A stretch of 57,123 bases of DNA from Streptomyces celluloflavus (lineage in GTDB: Bacteria; Actinomycetota; Actinomycetes; Streptomycetales; Streptomycetaceae). A program made the translations under genes and the position numbers. The stretch spans positions 1 to 57,123 of the forward strand of contig JOEL01000041.1 in assembly GCA_000720995.1 (NCBI GenBank). The letters are read 5' to 3'. Under the pieces are notes generated by a model. The model searched no databases, had not been told where the DNA came from, and worked only from the letters and a program-made list of their open reading frames with translations. How positions within the stretch are numbered: the first letter of the stretch is position 1; each line of letters opens with the position of its first letter. Below are positions 35,124 to 50,227 of this stretch, piece by piece.

Positions 35124-36566
35124 TCAGACCCCCGCAGGCGGAGCGTCAACAGCCGGAGCTTTCTGGGCGGCCAGGAAGATCGTGGCCAGGGTGAGGGCGG
35201 CGGCCAGCCAGGTGATGGTGTGGAACGCCTCGGTCAGTGCCTGGGCCGTTTCCGGGGAGTCACCCGCTTTCAGCGGGGAGGACGACGTGCCCGGGGGGAG
35301 AAACAGCCGGTAGGCCACGGTGGTGACCGTGCCGAAGACGGCGATTCCCAGGCCGGCGCCGGCCTCGTAGGCGACGGACTCGATGCCCGCCGCCGCGCCC
35401 GCCTGGGCGGAGGGCGCGGTGGCCATGATCAGGTTCGAGGCGACCATCTGGACCAGGCCGTGGCCGAACCCGATCAGGGCCAGGCCGAGCGGGACCACCG
35501 TGCCGGACGCGACCAGGACGTACCCGGCCACCGCGAGCAGCAGACCGGCGGGCACGCCCGCGCCCGGTCGTCCCAGCCGGGAGAGGATGAATCCGCCCGC
35601 CGGTCCCGCCACCGTCGCGGCCACCGGCATCGGGATCAGGTACAGCGCGGCGGCCTCCGCCGACAGGCCCTCGGCGAACTGGAGGTACTGCACCAGCTGA
35701 AGTTCGAAGCCGACCATCACCAGCACCGGCAGCACCGAGGCCACCACCCCGGCGCGCAGCGGGGGCAGCCGGAACAGGGACAGGTCCAGCATCGGGTGCG
35801 TCATACGCCGCTGCCGCCGGACGAACAGGACCAGTGCGGTCAGGCCCAGCGCGGCCGGCAGCACCACCTCCGGCGGTTCGACGTCGTCGTGGGTGAAGGC
35901 GATGATGGCGTAGGCGCTGCTCAGGAACCCCACGATCGACAGGAGCGGCGAGGTGGCTTCCCAGGGCTGCCGTTCGGACTCGACCTCGTTGCGCAGCAGC
36001 AGCGCCACGGTGGGGATGGCCAGCGCCACGACCGGCAGGTTGACGAGGAAGATCGAGCCCCACCAGAAATGCTGGAGCAGGAAGCCGCCCGCCACCGGTC
36101 CCAGCGCCGACGCCCCGGCGGCGACCGCGCTCCACGCCCCGATGGCCACCGCGTGGTCGCGGCCGTCGCCGAAGGTCTGCCGAATGAGGGCCAGCGTGGC
36201 GGGGATGATCATCGACGCGCCGACGGCCAGCACCGCCCGCGCGCCGATCAGGGCCTGCGGTCCCGGTGCCGTCGCGCACAGCACCGAAGCCGCGCCGAAG
36301 ACCGCGAGCCCGGCAAGCAGCAGCCGCTTGTGTCCGATCCGGTCGCCCAACGGCCCGCTGACCAGCACCAGTCCGACCATCAGCAGCGAGTACACGTCCA
36401 CTGTCCACAGCAGTTCGGTCGGGGACGCGTGCAGTTCGTCGGCGAGGGTCGGGACGGTGATGGTGAGGATGGTGACGTCCATGGCGGCCGGCAGGAAGCA
36501 CAGCAGCACCACGGTCAGTACCAGCCAGCGCCGGGCCGCCCCGACCACGGGCAGCGTGCTGGTCAC
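35124..36566 (-). CDS. MFS exporter (DHA2, 14-helix EmrB/QacA type)
   Basis: 480 residues. It starts at a GTG that overlaps the ATP-grasp stop (GTGA). The first helix and motif D region read RRWLVLTVVLLCFLPAAMDVTILTITVPTL, and the loop GPLGDRIGHKRLLL carries the MFS motif A; the antiporter motif C is near AAGASALGPVAGGFLL. About 14 hydrophobic segments. It is the last gene of the five-gene minus arm and is the natural candidate for exporting, or giving self-resistance to, the cluster product. Confidence 0.9.
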   Translation of the reverse strand: MTSTLPVVGAARRWLVLTVVLLCFLPAAMDVTILTITVPTLADELHASPTELLWTVDVYSLLMVGLVLVSGPLGDRIGHKRLLLAGLAVFGAASVLCATAPGPQALIGARAVLAVGASMIIPATLALIRQTFGDGRDHAVAIGAWSAVAAGASALGPVAGGFLLQHFWWGSIFLVNLPVVALAIPTVALLLRNEVESERQPWEATSPLLSIVGFLSSAYAIIAFTHDDVEPPEVVLPAALGLTALVLFVRRQRRMTHPMLDLSLFRLPPLRAGVVASVLPVLVMVGFELQLVQYLQFAEGLSAEAAALYLIPMPVAATVAGPAGGFILSRLGRPGAGVPAGLLLAVAGYVLVASGTVVPLGLALIGFGHGLVQMVASNLIMATAPSAQAGAAAGIESVAYEAGAGLGIAVFGTVTTVAYRLFLPPGTSSSPLKAGDSPETAQALTEAFHTITWLAAALTLATIFLAAQKAPAVDAPPAGV

Positions 36567-37858
36567 CGGCCGAGGTCCAGAGCCGCCCTGGCTCCGACGA
36601 TCAGTTCGTGCAACTCGGCCAGGCTCGGGGCGTAGAACATGCAGCTCAGTCTGCCAGTTCGCAGGTCTGTCAGCTCGGTCGGCACCACACCCCGGTCGGC
36701 GTGCCGGGGTGAGGCCACCAACCGTCCGAGCAGGCGCAGCACTTCCGGCAGCTCCAGCCCGGCCGGCAGGCCGTAGAAGTCGTAGTTGCCGACCGCGTGG
36801 GTGTCGAGGTAGCCGGGGCCGATGAGGTGGGCGCCGAATTCGTGCACATGACTCGACCCGGTGCGGCGGGCGTTGAGGTCGTGCATGTAGACGACGCCGT
36901 CGCGGGCGATGGCGTCGATGCCGAAGCGCCCGCGGTAGCCGCGCCGTTGCATCTCCCCGGCCAGCCGGAGTCCGCCCCTGGTCAGCGGGCGGTACCACCA
37001 CTCGTCGCGCAGTTCCCGCGCGGTGACGTTGCCGCGCAGGTGGGTGGCGCCCTCGAACAGCATGTCGGTCGTGTAGCAGAGGTGGGGCGGGGCGTCCTCG
37101 GGAACCATGTACTCCACGGACGGGAAGGTGATGTCGCCGTCGAGGAACTCCTCGACCACCACCGGCTCCTCGCCGTAGAACGTGCTCGCGGCCAGGCGTT
37201 CGGTGATGTCGTCGGCGCCGGGGCGGAAGATCAGCAGTCCGAGGCTCGCCTCCCCGCGGTCCGCCTTGACGATGCACGGCGTGCCCGTCGCGAGCATGCT
37301 CCGCACCGCCGCCGGCACCTCCCGCATCCCGGTGCAGTGCGTACCGGGCGGGATGCGGCAGGGCCCGTCGGTCATACCGAGGTCGGTGGCCAGGTCGCGC
37401 AGGCCGGTCTTGGTGTCCAGCAGGTCGCGCACGTCCTGCCGCGGCGGGCTCTCCGGTAGTTCGACGACGATGCCGTACCGGGTGCGCAGGGTCTCGGCGA
37501 ACCGCCACAGGTCGGCGGTGGTGGTGTGCGGGATCAGCCGAAGCCTGCGCCCCGGCCCCGCGTGGGCGGCCACGGCGGCCATCAGCCCGGGATCGGCGAG
37601 CGTGTCGGCGAAGAGTGAGCCGGTCCGGCCCGCCGGGCTGAGGTTCACCACGCCGTCGATCTCCAGGAACTTCCGCTGCCAGTCCAGGTCGCCGATCGGC
37701 TCGTAGGTGATGAGCATTTTGTCCAACGGCCCCCAGTACAGGGCCTGGTCCTGCTGGGCGTAGCACTCCGACAGCAGTTCCTCGACGCCGTCGGCGCGGA
37801 CGGCGAAGTCGCGCAGGGTGTCCACGGCGTTGCTCACGCAGAGGGTGGGTGTGGTCAT
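36563..37858 (-). CDS. ATP-grasp ligase (preATP-grasp / PGM1-like)
   Basis: 431 residues. The ATP-grasp core is seen in CIVKADRGEASLGLLIFR (ATP-binding Lys), EEPVVVEEFLDGDITFPSVEY, and the metal-binding end GRFGIDAIARDGVVYMHDLNARRTGSSH. The first 150 residues form a preATP-grasp part (LCVSNAVDTLRDFAVRADG, then ALYWGPLDKMLITYEP) similar in layout to ligases of the pheganomycin PGM1 type, which join a carboxylate to an amine or peptide through an acyl phosphate. In this cluster it would form the amide bond linking the two arms' products. ATGA overlap with the creatininase-like gene upstream. Substrates are not deducible. Confidence 0.8.
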   Translation of the reverse strand: MTTPTLCVSNAVDTLRDFAVRADGVEELLSECYAQQDQALYWGPLDKMLITYEPIGDLDWQRKFLEIDGVVNLSPAGRTGSLFADTLADPGLMAAVAAHAGPGRRLRLIPHTTTADLWRFAETLRTRYGIVVELPESPPRQDVRDLLDTKTGLRDLATDLGMTDGPCRIPPGTHCTGMREVPAAVRSMLATGTPCIVKADRGEASLGLLIFRPGADDITERLAASTFYGEEPVVVEEFLDGDITFPSVEYMVPEDAPPHLCYTTDMLFEGATHLRGNVTARELRDEWWYRPLTRGGLRLAGEMQRRGYRGRFGIDAIARDGVVYMHDLNARRTGSSHVHEFGAHLIGPGYLDTHAVGNYDFYGLPAGLELPEVLRLLGRLVASPRHADRGVVPTELTDLRTGRLSCMFYAPSLAELHELIVGARAALDLGR

Positions 37859-38637
37859 GTTCGCTCCTCGCGCAGCAGTCCGCTGCCCTCTGTCACCAGG
37901 TCGACCGCGGCCGAGACGACGTGCCAGAAGAGGTCCTGGCCCAGTGCGGCGGTGGCACCCGAAGTGCTGGACAGGACGCCTTGGTTGGTGGTGCGGGTCA
38001 CGTCGACGGGGTGCAGGTAGACCCCGGGGCGGGGCGGGTCGGTGTGGTCGGGACGGGCGGCCGAGACCAGGTCCGGACGGAGGTAGAGCATCAGGCTGGT
38101 CTCGGTGATCCCCGCGTGCTCGGCGTGCCACCCCGGAAAGAGGGGCACCCGCCCGGCCAGCCACTCCGTGTCGACCAGGCTCCACCAGCTCAGCGCGATG
38201 AACTCCTTGCCCGCGGCCGCCGGCCGCCGGCCCACCTCGTCGAGGGCCTCGAACAGGAACGGTTCGTTCTCGAAGTGGCCGTTGACGACCAGCAACTGGT
38301 GCCACGGCAGGGCGCACAGCGACTCCAGCACGTCCACCAGGAAGGCCAGCAGGGACTGGCCGCGCACATGGACGGTGCCGGGGAAGGCCAGTCCGCCTCC
38401 GCTCTGCGGCAGCGACCGTGCCGCGATGGACTGCGCCGGCAGGGTCAGGGCGGTCAGTTCGTAGGCGATCTGCCGGGCGAATGCGTCGGCCAGGACGGTG
38501 TCCACGGACAGCGGCAGGTGCGGGCCGTGCTGCTCTATGGACCCGACCGGCCACACCACGGTCCGCCCGGCGGTGGCCGCCAGGATCTCGGCGCTGCTCA
38601 GGTCGCACAGCTGCGGCCCGGCCGACCGGGGGGTCAT
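37855..38637 (-). CDS. Creatininase-family amidohydrolase
   Basis: 260 residues of the creatininase/MftE-like fold. The metal-binding motifs are intact: GSIEQHGPHLPLSVDT (Glu, His, Asp), NGHFENE (His, Glu) and HAEHAGITETS. Members hydrolyse cyclic or linear amides (creatinine, FAPy in deazaflavin-linked riboflavin pathways, mycofactocin peptide). The operon places it right after a DHOD-like flavoprotein, which suggests ring opening of a reduced cyclic amide such as a dihydropyrimidine. That is inference; peptide cleavage is the alternative. ATGA overlaps on both sides. Confidence 0.83.
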   Translation of the reverse strand: MTPRSAGPQLCDLSSAEILAATAGRTVVWPVGSIEQHGPHLPLSVDTVLADAFARQIAYELTALTLPAQSIAARSLPQSGGGLAFPGTVHVRGQSLLAFLVDVLESLCALPWHQLLVVNGHFENEPFLFEALDEVGRRPAAAGKEFIALSWWSLVDTEWLAGRVPLFPGWHAEHAGITETSLMLYLRPDLVSAARPDHTDPPRPGVYLHPVDVTRTTNQGVLSSTSGATAALGQDLFWHVVSAAVDLVTEGSGLLREERT

Positions 38638-39533
38638 GACCGCACCCGCTCGGACCGGCCCGCTTCGGTGACGGGTCCGGCGCCGCGGCCGGTGCTCCCG
38701 GGGCCCGCGGTCTCGGTCACGATCCGGGCGAGCGTGAGGTACATGTCGGTGTGCAGCGCGGTGTACACCTGGGCCGCCACCGCGCCGACCCCCAGGTAGT
38801 CGTGCACGTCCCGGCCCGACTGCACACCGCCGGAGGCCAGTACGGGCAGTGTGAACCCGGTTCGGCGCAGTTGCCACAGCGAGGCCAGCACGAGCGGTTT
38901 GATGCCCGGTCCGGAGTAGCCGAAGACGCCGCCGAGCCGGAGGTCGCCGGTCTCCGGGTGTACGACGGCGGCGGGCAGGGTGTCGCTGATGGTCACCGCG
39001 TCCGCGCCGGCCCGTGCGGCGGCGAACGCCCGGTCGTGCAGGCCCTCACCACTGGCCAGCTTGACCGAGAACGGCACCCGGACCGCGGCGCGGGTCGCCT
39101 CGGTGTAGGCGTGCACCCGCTCGGGGGTGTCGTGGAGGCCGTCCTCCTCATTGAGGCAGGAGATGCCCAGTTCCAGCGCCCGGCTGCCGGCCGCCGCCGC
39201 GCGGGCCGCCAACTCGGCCAGTTCCGCCGGGGTGTCGGCGTGCAGCGACGCGATGACCGGCAGCCGGTCCCGTGCCAGGCCGCGCAGGATGTCCATCCAG
39301 TGGCTGACGGACCGTTTGGAGTAGGTGGTGCTGTTGATCATGCCGGTGGGCAGCCGGATGATGCGCTCGTCCAGGCCGGCTGGCGGGTTGGGGTGGATGG
39401 TCTTGGTGACCACCGCGCCCGCTCCGGTGGTCAGCAGTTTGCGGATGTTGCGCTCCTGGTCGGTGAGCAGACCGGAGCCGACCACGACCGGATTGGCCAG
39501 GTCCAGCCCCAGCACCTGTGTCGCGGCCGCCAC
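38634..39533 (-). CDS. Dihydroorotate dehydrogenase-like flavoprotein
   Basis: 299 residues of the FMN-binding PyrD/dihydropyrimidine dehydrogenase fold. Visible are the FMN-contact blocks NPVVVGSGLL and GAGAVVTKTI, the active-site Cys126 loop LGISCLNEED, equivalent to the catalytic Cys of class 1 DHODs, and the phosphate-binding end GGVFGYSGPGIKPLVL and VLASGGVQSGRDV. A housekeeping pyrD is expected elsewhere in the genome, so this is probably a specialised reductase or dehydrogenase of a pyrimidine-like ring. GTG start, one base after the stop of the N-glycosidase-like gene. Confidence 0.83.
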   Translation of the reverse strand: MAAATQVLGLDLANPVVVGSGLLTDQERNIRKLLTTGAGAVVTKTIHPNPPAGLDERIIRLPTGMINSTTYSKRSVSHWMDILRGLARDRLPVIASLHADTPAELAELAARAAAAGSRALELGISCLNEEDGLHDTPERVHAYTEATRAAVRVPFSVKLASGEGLHDRAFAAARAGADAVTISDTLPAAVVHPETGDLRLGGVFGYSGPGIKPLVLASLWQLRRTGFTLPVLASGGVQSGRDVHDYLGVGAVAAQVYTALHTDMYLTLARIVTETAGPGSTGRGAGPVTEAGRSERVRS

Positions 39534-39534
39534 G

Positions 39535-40050
39535 TCAGACCGCTGTCCTGGTCCGGCCCAGCGCCGTGAGCACACCGTCGACCAGCGGTTCCGGGCCCGC
39601 GGCGAGCTCCGTGGCGGACAGGAACGTGGCGACGGCGACCTGGGCGAGCCCCTTGAGGAGGTGGCTGGCCGATTCGGCGAAGGGCTGGTCGGTGATGCCC
39701 ACGATGGGGCGGCCCAGCGCGCTGGCCCACCCCAGTTCGATGTGCGTGCCGTCCGTGCGCAGCAGGGTGCCGTCGAGCACCGGCAGTACCGGCACGAACA
39801 CATCGCACTCGCGCATCCATGTGTAGTCGCGCACGGACACCTCCTCGGGGGTGAACAGCGCGGTGTCGGCGCCGAAGCGCTCGGCCACGTGCGCGGACAG
39901 CACGGTGGCGCCGGCCCGCCGCGCCTGGTCGATGGCCAGGCTCAGGCAGTCGCGGATCGGTGCCGCCATCCCGCCGGGCACCAGGGCGTGCTGGATCGGG
40001 CCGCCGACGAACAGGGTGACGCCGCGCAGGGCGTCCGGGGTGACACTCAT
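39535..40050 (-). CDS. Nucleoside 2-deoxyribosyltransferase-fold protein (MilB/BlsM-like)
   Basis: 171 residues. The front has the ligand loop LFVGGPIQHAL; the active-site segment RTDGTHIELGWASALGRPIVGI carries Glu105, matching the nucleophile of the family, and closely follows the GTHVEIGWASG pattern of the CMP and hydroxymethyl-CMP N-glycosidases MilB and BlsM from nucleoside antibiotic clusters. It would split a pyrimidine nucleotide or nucleoside into free base and sugar. It is the first gene of the minus arm, and its ATG has CGAAGGAGCC upstream as ribosome site. Substrate cannot be read from the sequence. Confidence 0.78.
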   Translation of the reverse strand: MSVTPDALRGVTLFVGGPIQHALVPGGMAAPIRDCLSLAIDQARRAGATVLSAHVAERFGADTALFTPEEVSVRDYTWMRECDVFVPVLPVLDGTLLRTDGTHIELGWASALGRPIVGITDQPFAESASHLLKGLAQVAVATFLSATELAAGPEPLVDGVLTALGRTRTAV

Positions 40051-40292
40051 GACTTTTCGAGGCTCCTTCGAAAGAGTCTGCCGACGACCGTACATTCGGG
40101 CGGACTTCGGTCACCGGAAAGAGGGAAAAGGCAGCGCAATCACATAATGCGCTTGCAGTGAATCGCAGGGGATTCCGGGTACGGGGAGCGACGGTGTCGG
40201 GCACCCGGTTGCCTGCTCGTCCCGCACTCCGCGTCCACCCGGCAGGCAAATAGACGAGCCAAGGCTAGGCCGGGGCGATTCGGCACCACAAG

Positions 40293-40319
40293 CAACATCT
40301 TCGCCAGACGGAGATGTTG
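40293..40319. promoter_or_regulatory. Inverted repeat, candidate operator
   Basis: CAACATCT at 40293-40300 and AGATGTTG at 40312-40319 are perfect complements 11 bases apart. The spacing suits a dimeric TetR- or GntR-type repressor; no regulator gene is present in the arms. Confidence 0.4.
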
Positions 40320-40698
40320 GTCAAATGGAACAAAAGGCACAAATCGGTCGACCGGAAAAATTGATTCGGCCACCCCCGGGAAGTGCCCGAAAGGCCAGTT
40401 CACGGGCGCAAAGCGGCAGTCTGTGGGAATCTCTCCCCCGGCCATTTCCGCCATGGTCCACAAACGGCCGGAATACCGCGAACTCACGCACAAACGCCTT
40501 CGGCACCAACACCGAAAGGAGAATGATAAGTAAAATCGGAGGCCACGTTGACAGGCGATAAAACCTCACCTAACGTCGATAGGCATGAATGGCTGGCGCC
40601 GCCTTTTTCCGGCGGGCACCGGCTCGCTTCCGGCCCCATTGCTGCCGCGATCCCATCCGCCTCTTCCACGCACCGAACGTCCGGCCGTGGCCTTTCGG

Positions 40699-40730
40699 AT
40701 GAACCCACCCAGAGATGAACCCACCCAGAG
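40699..40730 (+). repeat. Tandem 16-bp duplication before the ACP gene
   Basis: ATGAACCCACCCAGAG occurs twice in perfect tandem (40699-40714 and 40715-40730), ending just at the ribosome site. It looks like a recent slippage or duplication in the 5' leader. Confidence 0.85.
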
Positions 40731-40742
40731 GGGAAAGTTCTG

Positions 40743-41012
40743 GTGAACTCTTTGCAGACCATCAAACGAATTCTGCGTACCGATGTCCTCGTGGAGGTGC
40801 CGGTCGACCAGATGCAGCTCGACGACAGCCTGCGCGAGAGCTACGGCATGGACTCGCTCGGCTTCGTGGAGCTGCGCGTGCAGTGCGAGGAGGCGTTCGG
40901 CATCGACATCCCCGACGAGGCCGTCGCCGCCGGGGAGTTGTCCACCCTCGGCGATGTACTCGCCCTGGTCGAGCGGCTGTCGGGGGCCGACCAGTCCCCG
41001 ACCACCGCGTGA
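40743..41012 (+). CDS. Acyl carrier protein
   Basis: 89 residues, GTG start. The phosphopantetheine site is Ser38 in SYGMDSLGFVELRVQCEEAFGIDI, followed by helix III (LSTLGDVLALVERL). It carries the growing or modified acyl chain. It is the first gene of the plus arm and its TGA overlaps the GTG of the aminotransferase (GTGA), so the aminotransferase is likely to work on an ACP-bound substrate. Its acidic helix II resembles ACPs of type II fatty-acid or polyketide systems more than NRPS carrier proteins. Confidence 0.92.
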   Translation: MNSLQTIKRILRTDVLVEVPVDQMQLDDSLRESYGMDSLGFVELRVQCEEAFGIDIPDEAVAAGELSTLGDVLALVERLSGADQSPTTA

Positions 41013-42394
41013 GCACGGTCCCGGTCACCCGCGACGACCGCACCGGGGACCCGGCCGGTGTGCTGGCGCGCGGCACGGACCTGCACCTCAACCACTACGG
41101 GGCGGCGCGGCTGCCGTTCGCCTGCGTGGGCGGGCGCGGCCTGGAGCTCGACGTGGTCGACCTGAGCCCGGAACACCGGGGCAGGCGGCTGCGGCTGCTG
41201 GACGCCGGCGCCGGCTACGCCAGCGCGGCCCTGGGCGGCGCCCACCCGGTCGTGCGAGCGGCGCTGGCGCGCGGCACCGGGGTCGGCAACGTCACCGACG
41301 AACTCGGCTCACTGGAACGCGCGGAACTCCTCGACCGGCTCTTCGGCCCCGGCGGGCTGTGGACCGGCCACTTCCCCACGGGGCGGTACCACGTCAGCGG
41401 ACGCAACTCCGGCTCCGAGGGGAACGAGTTGGCGCTGCGGCTCGTACTGGAGTCCCGGTTCGACGGCCGGCGGCTGCGCCACCGTCCGGGCAAGGAGCGG
41501 CGCGACACCATCCTGGCGTTCCAGGGCGCCTGGCACGGCTGGACCGGTGGGCTGGTGCAGCTGCTCAACCGCAGGCACTACCGGGCCGGACTGCCCGCGA
41601 CGGACACCGCCGGCCCGTACGGCGTCCGGGTCGAGCACATCCCGTTCGGCGACCCGGACGCCCTGGCCGAGTACTTCGCCGCGTCCGCCGACCGGCTGCT
41701 GGCCGTGGTGGTCGAGCCGATCCAGGGCGACGCGGGCATCCTCCTGCCGCCACCCGGCTACCTGCGCAACCTCGCGCGGCGGTGCGCGGCCGACGGGGTG
41801 CTGCTCGTCGCCGACGAGGTGCTGACGTTCGCCAAGACCGGCAGCTGGTTCGCCATGCGCGACGCGGACGGGCCGGTGCCCACCGACATCACCGTCATCG
41901 GCAAATACCTGGGCATGGGCGCGGTGTCCACCTCGATGGTGATCGCCCGCGAGGATCTGGCCGTCCGCTCCTCCGGCGCCGTGACCACCTCCGATCTGCG
42001 GCCGCTGAACTGCGCGGTGATCCGTGACGGTATCGAGCACATCGAGGCCGAAGGGCTGCTGCGGCGGTCGGCCGACGTCGGCGTGGACCTGGCCGAACTC
42101 CTCCGCACCGCCTTGGTGGACCGCCACCCGGACGTGTTCACCGAGGTCCGCGGGACCGGGGTCATGCTCGGCGTGGAACTGACCGCCGCGGCGGCGGACC
42201 GGATCGGCGCGCTGCGCAGGGCACTGATCGAGGCGGGTGTGTACGCGGAGTTCATGGCGGGCGCGGGGAAACGATCCGGCGGCCGGCGCTACGTCCATCC
42301 CACCCTGCGGATCGTGCTGCCGCTGATCGCCGACGGGGCGCAGGCCACCGAGATCGCGGAGCGGGTGGCGGCGGGCGCCCGGTCGCTGTGGTGA
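41009..42394 (+). CDS. Class III (glutamate-1-semialdehyde-like) aminotransferase
   Basis: 461 residues, PLP-dependent. The cofactor residues are seen in VSGRNSGSEGNELALRL (phosphate cup), QGAWHGWTGG, VADEVLTF with Asp269, and the Schiff-base Lys299 in TVIGKYLGMG. Members of this branch include the aminotransferase domains of iturin and mycosubtilin synthases, which convert beta-ketoacyl-ACP to beta-aminoacyl-ACP. Coupling to the ACP gene and absence of a ketoreductase in the cluster support such a role here, but an aldehyde to amine reaction is possible. Confidence 0.87.
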   Translation: MSTVPVTRDDRTGDPAGVLARGTDLHLNHYGAARLPFACVGGRGLELDVVDLSPEHRGRRLRLLDAGAGYASAALGGAHPVVRAALARGTGVGNVTDELGSLERAELLDRLFGPGGLWTGHFPTGRYHVSGRNSGSEGNELALRLVLESRFDGRRLRHRPGKERRDTILAFQGAWHGWTGGLVQLLNRRHYRAGLPATDTAGPYGVRVEHIPFGDPDALAEYFAASADRLLAVVVEPIQGDAGILLPPPGYLRNLARRCAADGVLLVADEVLTFAKTGSWFAMRDADGPVPTDITVIGKYLGMGAVSTSMVIAREDLAVRSSGAVTTSDLRPLNCAVIRDGIEHIEAEGLLRRSADVGVDLAELLRTALVDRHPDVFTEVRGTGVMLGVELTAAAADRIGALRRALIEAGVYAEFMAGAGKRSGGRRYVHPTLRIVLPLIADGAQATEIAERVAAGARSLW

Positions 42395-42939
42395 GCGCGG
42401 AGTTCCGCACCCGGGTCGAGCACGTCGACACCGACGCGACCGGGATCGTGCACTTCTCCCGCTACACCTCCCTGATGGAGACCGCGGGCACCGAGCACCT
42501 CGAAGCGCACGGCGCGGGTCTGACCGCCTTCGGCGCGGCGGGCGTCGACCTGGTCGCCGCCGACCTGCGGGTGACCTATCTCCACAGCGCCGTGTACCGC
42601 GACGTGATCGTCGCGGACACCCGGGTCGGCCACGTCGGCGCGGCCTGGTTCACGCTCGCGGTGGATCTGCTGCGCGAGGAGGGGGACGGCGACCGCACCC
42701 CGCTGGTGACCGGCACCCTCGTCTTCGCCGCCGTCGACCCCGACACCCGGCGCGCGGTGCCCCTGCCGGCGCCGCTGCGACAGGCCCTGAGAGGAATCGT
42801 CCCGGATGCGGCACACGAACGAATCGGCACCCCCTCCCGCAGCGGTCCGCGCGGCCCGGCCGCTGGGGATCTCGGCGATCGCCGCCCTGGTGCGCGGACG
42901 CCATCCCCGGCTGTTCATCGACCGGGTGCTGGACCATGA
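42391..42939 (+). CDS. Hotdog-fold thioesterase (4HBT/FadM-like)
   Basis: 182 residues, of which the first 130 form a hotdog thioesterase: RVEHVDTDATGIVHFSRYTSLMETAG contains the catalytic Asp and the family loop, then YRDVIVADTRVGHVGAAWFTLAVDLLRE. It would release or edit acyl chains from the ACP, as the small thioesterase of aryl polyene clusters does. Start GTG at 42391, overlapping the aminotransferase stop. Odd: the frame reads on for 134 bases into the next gene, giving an Arg/Pro-rich tail (PSRSGPRGPAAGDLGDRRPG) with no counterpart in the family. Confidence 0.8.
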   Translation: MSAEFRTRVEHVDTDATGIVHFSRYTSLMETAGTEHLEAHGAGLTAFGAAGVDLVAADLRVTYLHSAVYRDVIVADTRVGHVGAAWFTLAVDLLREEGDGDRTPLVTGTLVFAAVDPDTRRAVPLPAPLRQALRGIVPDAAHERIGTPSRSGPRGPAAGDLGDRRPGARTPSPAVHRPGAGP

Positions 42940-43330
42940 GCCCGGTGTGTTCCTGCGCAGTATGTTCGCCGTCTCCGCGGAGATGGGCGCGCTGTCCGGG
43001 CATCTGCCCGAGCGCGGTCTGACCCCGGGGGTGATCCTGCCCGGCAGCCACACCATGCAGGCTTTCGCCCAGTCCGGCGTGCTGCTCTACCAGTTGAGCA
43101 GCGCCCCGCTCGCCGACGACGAGGTGACCCTGGTCGGCACGGTCAAGTCCCGCTTCCTCGCCCCGGTCGTGCCCGGCGACCAGGTCGTTCTCGATGTACG
43201 CGCGGACCGGCTGTCCGGGCACACCTTCACCTTCTCCGCCGCGGTGACCGTGGAGGGCCGGTCGGTCGCCGGGTTCCGCGGTGCGATGAGCCGGGCGAAG
43301 GTCGATCCCGCGGGGGCCCGGCCGTGGTGA
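42806..43330 (+). CDS. FabZ/FabA-like 3-hydroxyacyl-ACP dehydratase
   Basis: 174 residues of the hotdog dehydratase type: HPRLFIDRVLDHEPG is the start of the fold, GHLPERGLTPGVILPGSHTMQAFAQSGVLL corresponds to the FabZ active-site block (the His in the loop is replaced: FabZ GHFPxxPxxPGVLxxE has an acidic residue where GS is seen here), and VKSRFLAPVVPGDQVVLDVRADRLSGHTFTF is the second strand pair. It may dehydrate hydroxyacyl-ACP or only bind it. It begins within the 3' end of the thioesterase gene. The ATG at 42806 is the only good start ahead of the fold. Confidence 0.8.
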   Translation: MRHTNESAPPPAAVRAARPLGISAIAALVRGRHPRLFIDRVLDHEPGVFLRSMFAVSAEMGALSGHLPERGLTPGVILPGSHTMQAFAQSGVLLYQLSSAPLADDEVTLVGTVKSRFLAPVVPGDQVVLDVRADRLSGHTFTFSAAVTVEGRSVAGFRGAMSRAKVDPAGARPW

Positions 43331-44433
43331 CCCCGGTGATCACCGGACTGGCCTGGGACACTCCGCTGGGCCGGGACCGGGAGGCGGTGTGGGAACGGCT
43401 GTGCGCGGGCGACTCGGGTCTGGCGCCCGTCGGCTCGCCGCATCCACTGCGCAACACGGTCGCGGCCGTCATCGATTCGGTGCCGTACGCGACTCCGCCC
43501 GGCGAACGCCAGCGGGTGCTCGCCGGGCGGGCGCTCGCCGCCGCGTTCGCGGACGCCGGTCTGGCCACGGCCGACCCCGGCGTCGGCCTGGTGCTGGGCA
43601 CCAGCTTCGGCGCCTCCCTGGACGAGGCGGAGCCGACGCTGCACGCCTGGGCCGACGACGCGGCGGCGGGCATCGGGCATCCGGGTACACCGGTGTGCGT
43701 CATGACCGCGTGCTCCGCGGGGTCGGACGCGATCGCCGTCGCGCACGCCCTGGTGCGCTCGGGCGAGCGGCGCATCTGCGTGGCGGGCGGGGTGGACGTG
43801 GTCACCGAGGCCAAGCGGCTCGGGCATTCCGCGCTGAGCACCATGAGTCCCACCGGTATGCGGGCGTTCGACCGGACACACGACGGGATGCTGCTCGGCG
43901 AGGGCGCGGCCTTCCTGGTGATCGAGCACCCCGACTCCGCCCGGGAGCGCGGCGCCCGGGTGTACGCCCGGCTGCGCGGCGCCGGCGCGGCCAACGACGC
44001 CGCCGGGCTCACCGCCCCGGACCCGTCCGGGCGCGCCGTGGTGCGCGCGATGCAACGCTGCCTGGCCTCGGCGGGCCTGGCACCCGCGGATGTCGCGGTG
44101 GTCAGCGCACACGCGACCGGGACCCCGCTCAACGACGAGGTCGAGGCGCGCAGCCTGCTGGAACTGTTCGGGGACGACGGTCCGTTGATGTTCGCCACCA
44201 AGGGGGCGTTCGGGCACAGCCTGGGCGCGACCGGGGCCATCGAGGCCGTGGCGACCGTACTGGCACTGCGCCACCGGCGGGTGCCACCGGTCCTCGGGCT
44301 GCGCGACCCCGCGGCACCGCTGCGGCTGGCCGCGGGCTCGGCGCAACCCGTGGGCGACGGCGCCGGGTTGAGCCTGACGCTGGGGTTCGGCGGGTTCAAC
44401 ACGTGTCTGCTGTTCGAAGGGGTGAGGGCGTGA
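43327..44433 (+). CDS. Beta-ketoacyl-ACP synthase (KS, FabF/aryl-polyene-like)
   Basis: 368 residues with the full catalytic triad of condensing enzymes: Cys129 in TACSAGSDAIA, His in VSAHATGTPLNDEVEA and His in KGAFGHSLGATGAIEA. It would extend acyl-ACP with malonyl-ACP. The sequence is shorter than FabF (about 410) and fits the compact ketosynthases of aryl polyene-like clusters. GTG start overlapping the dehydratase stop (GTGA). The half-length partner follows directly, as KS and chain-length-factor genes do in type II systems. Confidence 0.88.
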   Translation: MTPVITGLAWDTPLGRDREAVWERLCAGDSGLAPVGSPHPLRNTVAAVIDSVPYATPPGERQRVLAGRALAAAFADAGLATADPGVGLVLGTSFGASLDEAEPTLHAWADDAAAGIGHPGTPVCVMTACSAGSDAIAVAHALVRSGERRICVAGGVDVVTEAKRLGHSALSTMSPTGMRAFDRTHDGMLLGEGAAFLVIEHPDSARERGARVYARLRGAGAANDAAGLTAPDPSGRAVVRAMQRCLASAGLAPADVAVVSAHATGTPLNDEVEARSLLELFGDDGPLMFATKGAFGHSLGATGAIEAVATVLALRHRRVPPVLGLRDPAAPLRLAAGSAQPVGDGAGLSLTLGFGGFNTCLLFEGVRA

Positions 44434-44948
44434 CGCAGGTGCCGCCGGGCACACGGGTGCTGGGTTCGGCGACGGTGGTCGCCGAGGACCCGGCCGACCA
44501 CGCGGTGAACAAACCGTCCTTCTACGCCGACCCGGCGGCCTGGCTGGTCGCCGAGACCGTGGACCGGGCGCTGGCGGACTGCGCCGAGCCCGTGCTCGAC
44601 GCCGCCGACGACACCGGGATCGTGGTCATGAGCGCGACCGGGAGCGAGCGGACGATGCGCCGCATCGCCGCCTCGGTGCCGAGGTCCCGGGTGTCGCCGC
44701 TGCGCTTCGCCGGCGCCAATCCGGGGGTGCTGGCCGGGCTGCCCGCGCTGCGCCACGGGCTGCGCGGCCCGTCGCTGCTGCTGGCGGCGCACCCGGACGA
44801 GGCCGCCCCCGTGGCGTTCACGGTGATCGGCGGATGGCTCGCGGACGGCCACGCCCGGCACGTGCTCCTGGCCGGCCTGTACGCCACCGCGGGAGACGGG
44901 CAGATGTGCCGCTGCCTGGTCCTGACCGGCGCCGGGGCGGACCGGTGA
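44430..44948 (+). CDS. Half-length ketosynthase-like protein (ketoacyl-synt_2 / chain-length factor type)
   Basis: 172 residues matching the N-terminal half of ketosynthases without a catalytic Cys: DTGIVVMSATGSERTMRRIA, then SPLRFAGANPGVLAGLPALRHGLRGPSLLL and GGWLADGHARHVLLAGLY. The thiolase-fold second half is absent. Such short proteins accompany the KS in aryl polyene and related clusters. It may form a heterodimer with the KS and set chain length. GTGA overlaps with both neighbours. Its catalytic role is inferred only. Confidence 0.75.
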   Translation: MTQVPPGTRVLGSATVVAEDPADHAVNKPSFYADPAAWLVAETVDRALADCAEPVLDAADDTGIVVMSATGSERTMRRIAASVPRSRVSPLRFAGANPGVLAGLPALRHGLRGPSLLLAAHPDEAAPVAFTVIGGWLADGHARHVLLAGLYATAGDGQMCRCLVLTGAGADR

Positions 44949-46303
44949 ACGGCCTCACCCCCTCCGGGGTGGCCGGCTTCCTGACCCGGGTCGACGGTGT
45001 CCCGGCCGGCCGGGACGACCGCGCACCGGCCGGGGTGGACGACGTGCTGGCGGACCTCGCCGGACTGGGCCTGGCACCGGGCGCCGCGGTCGTGCTCTGC
45101 CTGGCCAACGGAGTCGAGCTGCTGCGCGTGCAGCTCGCGTCGTTGCTGCTGGGCCTGGTGCCGCTGGCCGTACCGCCGGGCACGCCGTGGCAGCGGGTCC
45201 GCGCACTGGCCGGGCACATCGGGGCCGGCGTGGTGGTGACCACCCGGCTGACCGGGACGGGGCCGCGGGTGCCGGTGGGCGGTGCGTCCGCCGTACCGAC
45301 CGGGCACCCCGCCACCCGCTACCGGCCGGGCGAGATCCTGCTGTCCACCTCCGGCACCTCGGGGATGTTCAGCGCGTGCGTGCACCGGGTGTCCTCGCTG
45401 CTGCACAACGCCCGCCTGCACGCCGGGGCCACCGGCATCACCTCCGCCGACACACTGCTGGTGAACCTGCCGCTGTACTACTCCTACGCGCTCGTGGCGC
45501 AGGCGTTCGCCGCGTACGTGACCAAGGCGCGGCTGGTGCTCGACGGACCGCCGTTCTCGCCGGCCGCCTACCGCGACACGGTCACCGCCCGCGGGATCAC
45601 CCACTCGGCGGTGACCCCGACGATCGCCCGCCGGCTGCTGGCCGACCCCGGGCACCTCCCCCGCGGGCTGCGGGCGCTGGCGGTCGGCGGGGACCGGCTC
45701 GCGCCCGCGGAGGTCGCGGACCTGCTGGCCGCGCGGCCGTCCGCGGAGCTGTACCTGACCTACGGGCTCACCGAGGCCGGGCCCCGCGTGTCGACACTGG
45801 CCGCGCACGCCGAACCCGCGCACCGGTACGGATCGGTCGGCCGCCCGCTGCCCGGGGTGCGCGTGTCGCTGCGCGAGGTACGGGACCAGGTGGGCGAGCT
45901 GCTGGTCGAATCCGGCACCGTACTGCTGCGACGAGTCGGGCAGCACAGCGAGCGCGTCCTGCTGGGACCGCGGACCATCGCCACCGGGGACGCCTTCTCG
46001 ATCGACGACGGCTATCTGACCTTCCACGGACGGCTGTCGGACTTCGTGGTGCTGCGCGGCGAGAAGGTCTCGCTGAACACCGTCCGGCAGGCCGCGCACG
46101 CCATCCCGGGGGTGGTGCACTGCGTGCCCAAGGTGGTGGACGAGGGCGGCACCCAAGTCCTCGACGTCCATCTGTCGGTCACCGACTCCCTCCCCGGCGG
46201 AGAGAAAGCGGTACGCCGCCTCCTCAACTCCCAGCTGCTGCCCGCCGAACGCCCGCGCGCGGTCTTCATCTCCGCCGCCGACCCGGAGAGCTTCCGCAAA
46301 TGA
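44945..46303 (+). CDS. Acyl-AMP ligase (ANL superfamily)
   Basis: 452 residues. Adenylating-enzyme motifs: LLSTSGTSGMFSACVHR is the A3 phosphate loop, but lacks the usual Lys (SGTTGxPKG); YLTYGLTEAGPR is A5; ATGDAFSIDDGYLTFHGRLSDFVVLRGEKV covers A7-A8. The C-terminal domain is short and ends PESFRK, where the last Lys may be the A10 lysine. It would activate a free acid as acyl-AMP and load the ACP, as the acyl-ACP ligase in aryl polyene clusters does. GTGA overlap before, ATGA after. Confidence 0.83.
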   Translation: MNGLTPSGVAGFLTRVDGVPAGRDDRAPAGVDDVLADLAGLGLAPGAAVVLCLANGVELLRVQLASLLLGLVPLAVPPGTPWQRVRALAGHIGAGVVVTTRLTGTGPRVPVGGASAVPTGHPATRYRPGEILLSTSGTSGMFSACVHRVSSLLHNARLHAGATGITSADTLLVNLPLYYSYALVAQAFAAYVTKARLVLDGPPFSPAAYRDTVTARGITHSAVTPTIARRLLADPGHLPRGLRALAVGGDRLAPAEVADLLAARPSAELYLTYGLTEAGPRVSTLAAHAEPAHRYGSVGRPLPGVRVSLREVRDQVGELLVESGTVLLRRVGQHSERVLLGPRTIATGDAFSIDDGYLTFHGRLSDFVVLRGEKVSLNTVRQAAHAIPGVVHCVPKVVDEGGTQVLDVHLSVTDSLPGGEKAVRRLLNSQLLPAERPRAVFISAADPESFRK

Positions 46304-47112
46304 CCCTCCGCCTCGGCTGGACCGTCCCGACGACCCTGACACCCGCCGGACTCCGCGAGTTCGCGGTGACCGCGGAGAGCCTCGGGTACGACCACCTGTC
46401 CGTCCCGGAACACCTGGTGTCCAGCGCCCCCGCCTACGAGAGCCTGACGCTGGTGGCGTTCCTGGCCGCGGTCACCACCCGCATCGAGCTGGCGACCGCG
46501 ATGACGATCCTGCCGCACCGCCCGGTGGTGCTCGCCGCCAAACAGGCAGCTCAACTGGCCCACCTCAGCGGCGACCGGCTGCGGCTGGGCATCGCCATCG
46601 GCTCCGATCCCGCCGAGTCCGCCGCCCTCGGCGTCGCCCCGGGCGCCCGCACGGCACTGTTCGAGGAACAGATCCACGCACTGCGCCTGCTGTGGACCCG
46701 GCCGGCGGCGGATTTCGCCGGCGAGCACATCGCGTTCTCCGGCGTCACCCTCACCCCCCGGCCGCGCCCGATCCCCCTCTGGCTGGGCGGCGGCACCCTG
46801 CGCACCGGCGGCAGACCCCGCTCCCTGCACCGGATCGCCACCCTCGCCGACGGCTTCACCATGTCCGGCCTGCTGGCCAACCGGGTCAACCGCGGCGGCG
46901 CACTCATCGCCGACCTGCGCACGGCGGTCACCGAAGCCGGCCGCGACTGGTCCACCTTCGGCATCGAAGCCCGCCTCCACCCCACCCCCGGCCAACCGGC
47001 CACCTGGCGCACCCTCGCCCACGCCTGGCACGCCGCCGGCGCCACCCACCTCACCGTCACCACCGACGACATCGCCTTGCTGGCTCCGGTACGTGCGGCG
47101 GTGAGGGGGTAG
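46300..47112 (+). CDS. Luciferase-like (LLM class) flavin-dependent oxidoreductase
   Basis: 270 residues of the bacterial luciferase-like TIM-barrel fold: LGWTVPTTLTPAGLREFAVTAESLGYDHLSVPEHL at the front, LATAMTILPHRPVVLAAKQAAQLAHLSGDRLRLGI and PIPLWLGGGT. It uses reduced FMN or F420; which of the two cannot be told. It could hydroxylate, N-oxidise or dehydrogenate an ACP-bound or free intermediate. It is the last gene of the plus arm, coupled through an ATGA overlap to the ligase. Confidence 0.85.
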   Translation: MTLRLGWTVPTTLTPAGLREFAVTAESLGYDHLSVPEHLVSSAPAYESLTLVAFLAAVTTRIELATAMTILPHRPVVLAAKQAAQLAHLSGDRLRLGIAIGSDPAESAALGVAPGARTALFEEQIHALRLLWTRPAADFAGEHIAFSGVTLTPRPRPIPLWLGGGTLRTGGRPRSLHRIATLADGFTMSGLLANRVNRGGALIADLRTAVTEAGRDWSTFGIEARLHPTPGQPATWRTLAHAWHAAGATHLTVTTDDIALLAPVRAAVRG

Positions 47113-47361: not shown

Positions 47362-48339
47362 TCAGGGGCAGGCGATGACCTGTGCCGCGTAGCTGAGGCC
47401 CGCACCGAAGCCCATCAGCAGGATCGCGTCCCCGGGCCGGACCTGGCCGAGGTCGATCAGCCGGGACAGCGCCAACGGCACGGAGGCCGCCGAGGTGTTG
47501 CCGGTCTCCACGATGTCCCGGGCCACGGCGGCGTTCGTGGCGCCGAGGCTCGTCGCCAGGCGTTCGATCATCCGCAGGTTCGCCTGGTGCGTTACGAAAC
47601 CCTTGAGGTCGGCCGGGGCGATCCCGGCGCGTGCGCAGGCCGCTGCCGCCACCGCGGCCAGCTCCGAGGTCACCCAGCGGTAGACGGCCTGGCCCTGCAT
47701 GGTCACGCTGCCGTGCCGGTCGGGGATGGCGACCAGCCCGGCCTTGTCGCCATCCCCGCCCCACTCCACCGGGTGGATCCCCGCCCGCTCCGCGGCGACG
47801 ACGACCGCGGCACCGGCCCCGTCGGCGAAGACGGTGGCGGTGTCCACGTCTCCCTGGTCCACCCAGTCGGTCATCCGCTCGGCCCCGATGACCAGGGCAC
47901 GGCGGCTGGTGCGGGAGCGGATGAGGCCGTCGGCGACGCCGAGGGCGTAACAGAAGCCCGCGCAGGCCGCGTTGACGTCGAAGGCCGCGATGCGCGGGAC
48001 GCCGAGGAGCGCCGCGACGGATGCCGCGCCGCCCGGCATGGGCGACGGCATGGAGCAGGTGGCCAGGACCAGCAGATCGATGTCGGCGGGAGCGAGACCC
48101 GCCGTCGAGAGCGCTTTGGCCGCCGCGCCGGCCGCCATCCCCGTGACGGTCTCCTCCGCTCCGGCGAACCGCCTCTCACGGACGCCCACCCGTCGCTCGA
48201 TCCACTCGGCCGTGACGCCGAGGCCCCTGCCCAGCTCTTCATTGCCGACGACCCGTTCGGGGCGGACGCCGGCGACGGCCGCGATCCGGGAACCAGCCGC
48301 GGCGCCGAAACCGGTCAGAGCGGATGAATTGGACGACAT
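47362..48339 (-). CDS. Beta-ketoacyl-ACP synthase III (FabH-like)
   Basis: 325 residues with the KAS III triad: Cys126 in VNAACAGFCYAL, His in FVTHQANLRMIERL and Asn in ETGNTSAASVPLAL. The enzyme condenses an acyl-CoA with malonyl-ACP to begin a chain. It lies at the left edge of the polyketide region and, with the free ACP, dehydrogenases and methyltransferase to its right, could build an unusual starter. It might instead belong to the plus-arm cluster to its left. ATG start; a long 3'-facing convergent border isolates it from that arm. Confidence 0.9.
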   Translation of the reverse strand: MSSNSSALTGFGAAAGSRIAAVAGVRPERVVGNEELGRGLGVTAEWIERRVGVRERRFAGAEETVTGMAAGAAAKALSTAGLAPADIDLLVLATCSMPSPMPGGAASVAALLGVPRIAAFDVNAACAGFCYALGVADGLIRSRTSRRALVIGAERMTDWVDQGDVDTATVFADGAGAAVVVAAERAGIHPVEWGGDGDKAGLVAIPDRHGSVTMQGQAVYRWVTSELAAVAAAACARAGIAPADLKGFVTHQANLRMIERLATSLGATNAAVARDIVETGNTSAASVPLALSRLIDLGQVRPGDAILLMGFGAGLSYAAQVIACP

Positions 48340-48971
48340 ACGGTCACCTCTAGCTGTCTGCGACGGCGGATGGTCCGTCGGGCATCAAAAATTCGACCCT
48401 CCGGGACCCTGAATACAGGCGGCGTTTTTTGCACGGAGCCGTCAATTCCACTTGACGAAGAGTTTTCCTTACCCGCATCCGACTCCGCACCCGGCCGCGA
48501 ACCAGAGGAGGGAGGACTGATTGAAGGGCCGGATTGCGGTGCGGATTGCCTTTCGCCACCCCTGCGGAGAATTCCGCACGAAGGCCGAAAGGCGCGCGTC
48601 CGCCCCTCGGCGACCACCACCGCGGGGCCGGACCGAGCCACCCGCCACGGCGAACCCGCATGTCAGCAGTGGCAGTTGAGCGCTTGACCAATTATGATGG
48701 CGACCACCGAATTCATCGAAGAAGGCTTGAACGGAGCACCACCTCGCCTTACGCTCCCTGGACGCACCGACGCGCATGTGCGTGGAATCCAGTTCCGACT
48801 GGCGGCCCTCACCATGGGGGTACAGTGCGAGTGATGCACGTCACAACAGCGGTCGGCCGGTTCGGGTGCTGTCTTATTTCCTGTCGGGTCGAAGGGGGAA
48901 TAGCGGTTGTGTGCAATAGATCGGTCCCGTTCCTCCCGCGGTGACGACTTCCTCAAGGAGTTGGAGAACGC
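48340..48971. promoter_or_regulatory. Divergent intergenic region before the LuxR gene
   Basis: 632 bases of lower GC with no supported gene between the KAS III and LuxR-type genes. It must contain the promoters of both. No clear operator was recognised. Confidence 0.4.
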
Positions 48972-49289
48972 ATGCACGGGGAGAGGCTTCAGGTCGGCGG
49001 GGGCGTCGGTAGACGAATAGGGGGCGGTGGCGGCCGCCCGGCATCGGTGGAAGGGTCCGTCCTGCAGGTGCTGACGCCGCGGGAGCTCGAAGTGTTCAGC
49101 GTGCTGCCGGACGGTGAGGGGAACCGGGAGCTCGCCCGCCGGCTCGGCATCGCAGAGCGGACCGTCAAGGCCCATCTGACCAGCATCACGAGGAAGCTGG
49201 GGCTGCGGTCCCGGGTGGAGGCCGCACTCCTCTCCGCGGAGTGGTCGGACGACCTCCGGCCCGATCCGAAGGACCTCGACAGACCGTAG
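48972..49289 (+). CDS. LuxR-type HTH regulator, short
   Basis: 105 residues; only the DNA-binding domain is present: LTPRELEVFSVLPDGEGNRELARRLGIAERTVKAHLTSITRKLGLRSRVEAALLS is a textbook LuxR_C_like HTH at residues 34-90. The N-terminal 30 residues are Gly-rich and disordered; no receiver or ATPase domain is seen. Small stand-alone LuxR regulators occur in Streptomyces antibiotic clusters. AAGGAGTTGGAGAACGC precedes the ATG. It lies 10 bases before the PPTase gene and likely is co-transcribed with it. Confidence 0.85.
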   Translation: MHGERLQVGGGVGRRIGGGGGRPASVEGSVLQVLTPRELEVFSVLPDGEGNRELARRLGIAERTVKAHLTSITRKLGLRSRVEAALLSAEWSDDLRPDPKDLDRP

Positions 49290-49299
49290 TGGCACCTTC

Positions 49300-50109
49300 A
49301 TGACTGAGTCCCTTCCGGCAGGGGCGGCAGGCGGGCCGCCCGGACCTCACGACACCGACACGGACGATCCGCTCGGCACGGCGGACAGCACCGACGCGGT
49401 CGACGTGTGGACGCTGTGGATTCCGGACCACGCCGCGGCAGCCGCCGCGCGCTCCGGGATCCTCGACCCCGAAGAGGCGAAGCGTGCCGCCGGGTTCCAG
49501 GACCCAGCGGCGCGCAGGCGCTTCGTCACCTCCCATGTGGGGCTGCGCGTGCTGCTCGGTGTCCGTCTCGGCACCGCGCCACAGGACGTCACCCTCGTCC
49601 GCGAGCGGTGCGGGATGCCCGGCTGCGAGAAGCCGCACGGGCGTCCCGCCGCCGCCGGTCACCCCGGGGTGCACTTCTCGCTCTCGCACGCCGGGGACAT
49701 CGCGCTCTACGCGCTGGCCGCCTCGCCGGTCGGGGCCGACATCGAGTCCCTGGATCTGGTCGGCGGCGGCCTCGAACGGATGGCCCGGCGCCTGCATCCC
49801 GACGAGCGGCGCGCCCTCGACACCCTGCATCCGACGGTGCGTCAGGAGGCGCTGCTGGGTTGCTGGGTGCGCAAGGAAGCGTTCCTCAAAGGGATGGGCA
49901 CCGGACTGCCCGGCGGGGTCGGCGCCCACCACGTCGGCCTCGCCGCGGCACTGGCCCCAGCCTGGGCACCGCCCGGGCCCGACGGCTGGGCCCTCCTCGA
50001 CGTGCCCGCGCCCGACGGCTGTCACGCGGCCGTCGCCCTGCGTCTCCAGGGTCCCGCGGGACGGGGACGGATCCCCACCATACGTACCTCCCGACTGCTG
50101 ATGGAATGA
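49300..50109 (+). CDS. 4'-phosphopantetheinyl transferase (Sfp type)
   Basis: 269 residues. Motifs of Sfp-type enzymes: VHFSLSHAGDIALYALAAS, VGADIESLD (metal-binding Asp and Glu) and LGCWVRKEAFLKGMGTGL (metal-binding Glu and the W-x-x-KE-A box). It transfers phosphopantetheine from CoA to the Ser of carrier proteins, here presumably the ACPs at 40743 and 54468 and the PKS. The first 30 residues are a Gly/Asp-rich leader. The stop precedes the 3' end of the SDR gene by 118 bases. Confidence 0.9.
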   Translation: MTESLPAGAAGGPPGPHDTDTDDPLGTADSTDAVDVWTLWIPDHAAAAAARSGILDPEEAKRAAGFQDPAARRRFVTSHVGLRVLLGVRLGTAPQDVTLVRERCGMPGCEKPHGRPAAAGHPGVHFSLSHAGDIALYALAASPVGADIESLDLVGGGLERMARRLHPDERRALDTLHPTVRQEALLGCWVRKEAFLKGMGTGLPGGVGAHHVGLAAALAPAWAPPGPDGWALLDVPAPDGCHAAVALRLQGPAGRGRIPTIRTSRLLME

Positions 50110-50227
50110 CTGGAGCGCGCGGCTCACGTCCGGACGACTGGCCGGCGTGGGAGACGTGGCCGCGGAGCCCGGCAGAGATGGACGGGATGAACAGCGTGCC
50201 GGGCAGGACACCTTCGAGTCGGCCGCT

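Follow-up and report, generated by a model that had tools for sequence, protein, structure and literature searches.

The DNA analysed here, 57,123 nucleotides of Streptomyces celluloflavus (assembly GCA_000720995.1, contig JOEL01000041.1) and called the window throughout, contains at positions 35124-47112 what is probably one biosynthetic cluster, whose product would be 3-aminopropionamidine joined through an amide bond to an aminocyclopentanecarboxylic acid, either amidinomycin or its 2-amino regioisomer. One arm of the cluster resembles the type II polyketide synthase (PKS) that builds the cispentacin ring, the other a cassette for the amidine together with an ATP-grasp ligase. A more specific reading is offered tentatively, with the odds somewhat against it: that this is the amidinomycin cluster itself, in which the cispentacin PKS is redirected to the 3-amino isomer by F420-dependent reduction before decarboxylation and the amidine is added by a travelling ATP-grasp module.

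The two divergent arms hold 13 coding genes, recognised by reading frame, start and stop codons and a GC content at third codon positions (GC3) of 0.85-0.96, and are separated by a 692-bp gap (40051-40742). Outward from the gap, the minus arm comprises NDT-like, DHOD-like, creatininase-like, ATP-grasp and major facilitator superfamily (MFS) genes. The plus arm runs from an acyl carrier protein (ACP) through a class III aminotransferase, a 4HBT hotdog protein, a FabZ-like hotdog protein, a ketosynthase (KS), a short KS-like protein and an AMP ligase to a luciferase-like oxidoreductase (LLM). Nine of the eleven same-strand junctions are exact 4-base GTGA or ATGA overlaps (at 36563, 37855, 38634, 41009, 42391, 43327, 44430, 44945 and 46300), in agreement with an earlier note on this DNA, made from the sequence alone, which had described thirteen genes in two divergent arms with nearly universal overlaps. 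The remaining two are a 1-bp gap between the DHOD-like and NDT-like genes and an overlap of 134 nt (42806-42939) between the thioesterase frame and amcE. The features are as follows.

35124..36566 (-), MFS exporter, DHA2/SmvA-like, 480 aa; Pfam MFS_1 9.6e-44 on the longer open reading frame
36563..37858 (-), PGM1-like ATP-grasp amide ligase (putative), 431 aa; remote profile matches
37855..38637 (-), creatininase-like cyclic amidohydrolase, 260 aa; Pfam 9.5e-53
38634..39533 (-), DHOD/dihydropyrimidine-dehydrogenase-like flavoprotein, 299 aa; Pfam DHO_dh 6.8e-27
39535..40050 (-), CMP N-glycosidase-like (NDT-like) protein, 171 aa; profile against solved structures
40548..40576 (+), candidate sigma70-like promoter for the plus arm; TTGACA, 17 bp, TAACGT
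40743..41012 (+), AmcB-type acyl carrier protein, 89 aa; NF058660
41009..42394 (+), AmcC-type ACP-acyl ketone transaminase (class III), 461 aa; NF058664
42391..42939 (+), AmcD-type hotdog (4HBT) thioesterase, 182 aa; Pfam 4HBT_2 3e-14 and operon position
42806..43330 (+), AmcE-type hotdog decarboxylase, 174 aa; NF058663
43327..44433 (+), AmcF-type ketosynthase, 368 aa; NF058662
44430..44948 (+), AmcG-type cyclization factor (short KS-like partner), 172 aa; NF058659
44945..46303 (+), AmcH-type 2-oxoglutaryl-ACP ligase, 452 aa; NF058661
46300..47112 (+), F420-type luciferase-like oxidoreductase (LLM), 270 aa; TIGR03619 181.1 bits against a cut-off of 166.9

The arrangement is conserved as a whole. 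The ligase alignment, used to scan contigs, retrieved nine loci, all from Streptomyces and with 83-91% identity, and every one of them carries both arms in the same layout, the individual genes being 78-95% identical. Thirteen complete genes are present in six of the nine (L052, L054, L055, L056, L058 and L060); L053 ends within the LLM gene, at the end of the locus, and contig ends truncate L057 and L059. Two further loci, L041 and L065, appear to equal L052 and L056, respectively, and were not counted twice. The TTGACA of the candidate promoter is invariant in all nine aligned intergenic regions and its -10 hexamer partly so. In L053 (Streptomyces sp. MJM8645) about 1.4 kb (8588-10001) lie between the creatininase and ATP-grasp genes, which share a 4-base overlap in the window.

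The conserved unit ends where the earlier note had placed its borders, at 35124 and 47112, as the next genes outward are not conserved. Neither the flanking inositol monophosphatase (34161) nor the ketoacyl-ACP synthase III (KAS III, 47362) had a tblastn match at E 1e-5 in ten loci (the nine Streptomyces loci and L050), or at E 1e-6 in the 18 loci of the amc comparison. The sequence past the LLM gene amounts to about 620-780 bases in six of these ten loci and to zero in L053, L057 and L059, while L041 and L065 extend 3-6 kb beyond that gene. The adjoining region 47362-52242 contains the KAS III, a LuxR-type regulator, a phosphopantetheinyl transferase and a thioester-reductase-like gene, and possibly belongs to another pathway. 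KAS III and the phosphopantetheinyl transferase were considered as cluster members and rejected, having no match in L041 and L065; the ten loci stop too near the LLM gene to bear on the transferase.

Six plus-arm proteins score above the curated NCBIfam cut-offs for their Amc families (bits against cut-off: AmcB 112.7/80, AmcC 743/600, AmcE 199/140, AmcF 560/325, AmcG 210/80, AmcH 595/370). The score of AmcC is the lowest of five B-H loci compared (768-788 bits in the other four), and the AmcE scores of the window (199 bits) and of locus L070 (230 bits) are the lowest of five, the others reaching 264-284. No Amc-specific model matched AmcD, whose identity to its counterparts in six other B-H loci is 40-56%. 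A long C-terminal tail is kept in the AmcD of the aligned amidine-arm relatives, and none is shown by the other aligned AmcD pieces. According to the in vitro study of the amc enzymes, AmcH loads 2-oxoglutarate onto AmcB, and AmcF-AmcG performs a single malonyl elongation with ring closure, giving 3-oxocyclopent-1-ene-1,2-dicarboxyl-ACP; decarboxylation by AmcE, reduction by FabI, amination by AmcC from ornithine or lysine and release of cispentacin by AmcD follow (PMC10698177).

These assignments bear on the earlier interpretation of the plus arm as aryl-polyene-like chain building, in which a linear chain with a beta-amino group would be made and then amidated by the ATP-grasp enzyme. Genes for a KS, a short KS-like protein, hotdog proteins and an acyl ligase are indeed present. 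However, the chain-building genes are AmcB, AmcE, AmcF, AmcG and AmcH above curated cut-offs, so that the supposed KS, short KS-like, FabZ-like and ligase set corresponds to AmcF, AmcG, AmcE and AmcH, makers of a five-membered ring, of which AmcF-AmcG carries out one elongation as described for the amc system (PMC10698177). No match to a ketoreductase family was obtained with Pfam on 12 of the 13 genes or with NCBIfam for the ACP, in line with the note's own remark that the cluster has none; the absence is explained because the amc-type ring route needs none. An aryl polyene or highly reducing type II PKS is refuted by the family assignment (an AmcG-type KS partner, an AmcE-type dehydratase-like protein and no ketoreductase), and we regard a linear chain as extremely improbable. 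The note was right about the ACP-coupled class III aminotransferase, as AmcC forms a beta-amino acyl thioester in this way from a ring ketone (PMC10698177).

The NDT-like, DHOD-like and creatininase-like genes of the minus arm form a trio that is a probable cytosine-to-amidine cassette. In profile searches against solved structures, the nearest relatives of the NDT-like protein are CMP N-glycosidase (4jen, 9.9e-20), BlsM (5vto, 7.5e-19) and CMP/hydroxymethyl-CMP hydrolases, and the glutamate of its GTH.E.GWA motif is invariant in 7/7 rows. The DHOD-like protein matches PyrD-B (1.8e-30) and dihydropyrimidine dehydrogenase (1.5e-24) with its ISC cysteine invariant in 10/10 rows, and the creatininase-like protein matches creatininase 1q3k (6.1e-54) with the EQHG, GHxEN and AEHAG motifs and D46 likewise invariant in 10/10 rows. 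The proposed end product of such a cassette, 3-aminopropionamidine, is described as a common precursor of pyrrolamides (PMC4047045). The earlier interpretation as a whole is partly supported: its aminotransferase, its ATP-grasp amide former and its lack of a ketoreductase stand, its aryl polyene does not, and the role of the trio was missed.

When 295 genomes of the genus were searched, a creatininase of at least 53% identity was found in nine, counting that of the window, and the trio is contiguous in all nine. Two of these loci are of the window type, three are of the pyrrolamide type (L046-L048), with trios 52-66% identical to that of the cluster, and four are of another type (L042-L045). 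Among the pyrrolamide-type loci, L047 contains genes for an aldehyde dehydrogenase, UDP-sugar dehydrogenase, epimerase, glycosyltransferase, nucleotidyltransferase, DegT aminotransferase, glycosidase-like protein, amidohydrolase, methyltransferase, condensation-domain protein and ABC protein. Ten of its non-trio genes were searched for, of which nine are present in L046, whose contig is cut, and ten in L048; none matched in L042-L045 or in the window. Likewise, family scans of the cluster's 13 genes revealed no condensation-domain parts of a nonribosomal peptide synthetase and no pyrrole-forming sugar-like genes. The loci L042-L045 (four of the 295 genomes) pair the trio with a luciferase-like gene longer than LLM (437-449 aa, its Pfam family checked for L042 and L045) and with an MFS gene of the DHA2-like kind, whose product is 36-37% identical to that of the window. 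No match to amc, ATP-grasp or the tested pyrrolamide-type genes was found in them, and they appear to be an amidine-type cluster.

The ATP-grasp protein is the likely amide-forming enzyme, as the earlier note had already proposed. Its profile matches include PDB 8ynd (1.9e-12), PGM1 (3wvq, 7.2e-12) and a BesA-type ligase (8yi6, 1.1e-4). Among the 295 genomes of the genus a full-length close relative occurs in G175 (91%) and a partial one in G165 (53%), the rest matching at E 3.9e-20 or weaker, and at E 1e-25 no match besides the window was found in 394 genomes across the class. The partial ligase of G165 (L049:7816-9992) lies close to the end of a contig and is accompanied by an MFS gene, with no trio or amc match and with four of five scanned neighbouring open reading frames lacking a Pfam family. 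This locus was set aside as a remnant, its ligase being partial and the other genes of both arms unmatched. The MFS protein of the window matches NCBIfam PRK14995 (5.9e-99, 332 bits, under the cut-off of 701), and its gene is found in all nine Streptomyces loci; it probably serves self-resistance or export.

Annotation and match place the ATP-grasp, DHOD-like, creatininase-like and NDT-like genes contiguously on two plasmids of Agrobacterium tumefaciens, NZ_CP116695.1 (L050) and CP039919.1 (L051). Identities between L050 and the window are 41% for the ATP-grasp, 54% for the DHOD-like, 52% for the creatininase-like and 45% for the NDT-like protein, and no amc genes were found in L050, the Agrobacterium locus searched. 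As the ligase stands beside the trio there and no amc gene accompanies it in L050, its constant partner looks to be the amidine and not the ring, whereas the acid partner varies. The neighbouring genes of these cassettes (L050:8354-18075 and L051) encode a 2-oxoglutarate/Fe (2OG-Fe) oxygenase, a diaminopimelate-decarboxylase-like protein dependent on pyridoxal phosphate (PLP) and a MATE transporter (annotated so in L050), with an acyl-homoserine-lactone synthase and a LuxR gene nearby. The plasmids are typed as conjugative, and the cassettes apparently belong to a pathway for an amidine conjugate.

Either arm also occurs alone. The trio lacks amc genes in seven fetched loci, amcB-H lack the trio in six, and the trio with the ATP-grasp gene is found on the two Agrobacterium plasmids. 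It is consequently conceivable that the arms are independent neighbours, one making free cispentacin and the other a different amidine conjugate, and the separate contigs that carry the trio and an amcB-H locus in genome G150 accord with this. Yet the arms of the window share a single divergent gap, remain together in all nine relatives at the identities given above while the outward neighbours change, and offer the ligase no other source of an acid among the 13 conserved genes, so that two unrelated pathways are improbable. The earlier note had taken conservation of one arm without the other as a sign against a joint cluster; this does occur elsewhere, yet not among the close relatives, and we interpret the separate occurrence as an indication of modularity rather than an artefact. 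We regard the arms as modules, the ligase apparently travelling with the trio.

From the observed gene content, family membership, co-conservation and modularity we infer the following reactions in this organism, and the product. By analogy with the amc enzymes in vitro (PMC10698177), AmcH would load 2-oxoglutarate on AmcB, and AmcF-AmcG would add one malonyl unit and close the ring to 3-oxocyclopentene-1,2-dicarboxyl-ACP. One ring carboxyl would then be lost and the C=C bond reduced by FabI or, as proposed here, by LLM; AmcC would aminate the ring ketone and AmcD release the amino acid. In the minus arm, the NDT-like enzyme would free cytosine from CMP and the DHOD-like enzyme would convert it by reduction to 5,6-dihydrocytosine. 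Hydrolysis of the dihydrocytosine ring by the creatininase-like enzyme would then yield a carbamate, which would lose CO2 to give 3-aminopropionamidine. The ATP-grasp ligase would join both halves and the MFS protein export the product, for which C9H18N4O and an [M+H]+ of 199.1553 were computed. This formula equals that of amidinomycin, which we take to consist of 3-aminocyclopentanecarboxylate and 3-aminopropionamidine.

The position of the amino group depends on which carboxyl is lost, and with an LLM gene and a diverged AmcE in the cluster the genes by themselves do not fix it. Loss of the free ring carboxyl by AmcE gives the 1,2 pattern, while loss of the thioester carboxyl after reduction of the C=C bond and hydrolysis would give the 1,3 pattern and would explain the extra reductase. 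AmcF exceeds its cut-off in 19 of 392 genomes of the genus and in none of 14 control genomes, and 19 amc loci (the window, L041 and 17 fetched loci, with about 10-19 kb examined per locus) were compared. All seven B-H genes are present in nine of them and the amidine arm in three, each with all seven and LLM; the only other LLM lies in L070 (51%). The AmcE proteins of the window, L070 and six loci with the amidine arm have five extra residues directly after the GHLPER motif at the catalytic histidine, and these residues are absent from all eight aligned AmcE proteins of loci without LLM. The E gene was found in ten of the 17 fetched loci, nine of which were used for the AmcE alignment, L065 being omitted as a repeat of L056. 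The predicted AmcE structure has a hotdog-like fold; the catalytic-histidine loop and insertion have a predicted local distance difference test score (pLDDT) below 50, and the model was not used.

In the AmcF tree (25 rows; stops in tblastn pieces written as X) the nine amidine-arm proteins form one clade with 100/100 support, while L070 groups with L071/L072, weakly supported (84/81). L070 as a simple sister of the window clade is therefore not supported, and LLM and the AmcE insertion are not explained there as a single clade trait. L053 and L059 are outside the Amc protein alignments; the AmcC alignment leaves out L061 (a 30% match elsewhere in the locus), and the AmcD alignment leaves out L070 (a stop in the tblastn piece). 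The L070 locus itself (L070:2765-14213), where a C26 peptidase, a glutamine-synthetase-like ligase and two class III CoA-transferases accompany the B-H genes and LLM, represents a different cispentacin-type cluster.

Two routes can be set against this pattern. The ring may be ordinary cispentacin, LLM merely supplementing FabI and the product being N-(2-amidinoethyl)-2-aminocyclopentanecarboxamide. All seven B-H genes are present, including that for AmcE, whose removal of the ring carboxyl gives the 1,2 pattern (PMC10698177), and AmcE is kept at 87-95% identity in eight of the nine amidine-arm loci, those that reach it. LLM would be redundant with FabI here, yet it is limited to the three amidine-arm loci and L070 among the 19, and the AmcE insertion beside the catalytic histidine loop, with the window copy scoring lowest of five, fits this route poorly. 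Moreover, we know of no 2-amino natural product of this kind. We consider this route possible, and the less probable of the two.

In the other route, LLM with F420H2 would reduce the C=C bond of the 1,2-dicarboxyl intermediate ahead of decarboxylation. Release of the thioester would then yield a beta-keto acid, and loss of the carboxyl that had been bound as thioester would give 3-oxocyclopentanecarboxylate, from which AmcC would form the 3-amino acid. The 3-oxocyclopent-1-ene-1,2-dicarboxylate intermediate is documented in the amc study (PMC10698177). The extra LLM gains an essential role and the altered AmcE fits. The two halves so obtained would be exactly those of amidinomycin. On the other hand, AmcE would have to be spared or re-tasked although it is strongly conserved, AmcC would have to accept another substrate, and no reference cluster for amidinomycin is at hand. 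We lean slightly to this 3-amino product, which we put somewhat below an even chance.

A number of points weigh against the assignment to an amidine conjugate of a cispentacin-type acid. G150, which has a pyrrolamide-type trio (L046) and, on a different contig, an amcB-H locus without LLM (L067), demonstrates that the presence of the two gene sets in one genome need not mean that they form this cluster. The trio of L042-L045, where neither the ATP-grasp gene nor any of the ten tested pyrrolamide genes had a match, is not assigned a product. AmcD is assigned tentatively, by fold, likeness to other D genes and position, the ATP-grasp protein reaches 22.8 bits against Pfam PreAtp-grasp, under the cut-off of 27.5, and its predicted structure (pLDDT 42) was not used. 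That the trio is the route from cytosine to 3-aminopropionamidine is our assumption from congocidine work, and no product of this strain is known to us.

The literature searched, with most subscription journals outside it and MIBiG not covered, contains no paper that names amidinomycin and no description of this gene combination, and the main text of Hibi et al. makes no mention of ATP-grasp, F420, luciferase or amidine (PMC10698177). The supplementary lists of that study cover more than 100 clusters, and this one may be among them as an unnamed entry. The cluster apparently joins two known modules in a new way, and its product probably belongs to a known class. If this holds, two modules that have been studied separately, the PKS of the cispentacin carbocycle and the route from cytosine to the amidine, are linked through a ligase that apparently moves with the amidine module, and amidine "caps" would be a portable tailoring cassette in Streptomyces and Agrobacterium. 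The 12 kb cluster would also be a small target for the origin of compounds of the type of amidinomycin, an old antiviral antibiotic, and permit a direct test of which carboxyl a ring-forming type II PKS loses.

Among known systems, amcB-H of the amipurimycin cluster (PMC10698177) are closest to the plus arm, with seven orthologue-type genes in the same B-C-D-E-F-G-H order. The present cluster differs in the added LLM and in its AmcE, whose 5-residue insertion is lacking in eight other AmcE proteins. Its partner genes differ as well: where the amipurimycin cluster has nucleoside genes, it has the ATP-grasp ligase and the amidine cassette. With the congocidine, netropsin and distamycin (pyrrolamide) clusters it shares the NDT-like/DHOD-like/creatininase-like trio, taken as the 3-aminopropionamidine route; the amide bond is assigned to condensation domains there and to the ATP-grasp ligase here. 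The Agrobacterium cassette has the same four contiguous minus-arm enzymes, but different acid-partner genes (2OG-Fe oxygenase, decarboxylase-like), a MATE exporter and, in L050, no amc genes. PGM1 and BesA ligases (3wvq, 8yi6) are likewise free-standing, of about 430-475 aa and remotely similar in profile, whereas the cluster's ligase lies under curated cut-offs and would accept the amine of an amidine, not an amino acid or peptide. Amidinomycin agrees in both predicted halves and in formula, its amine having the 1,3-placement as opposed to the 1,2-placement of the cispentacin-derived isomer.

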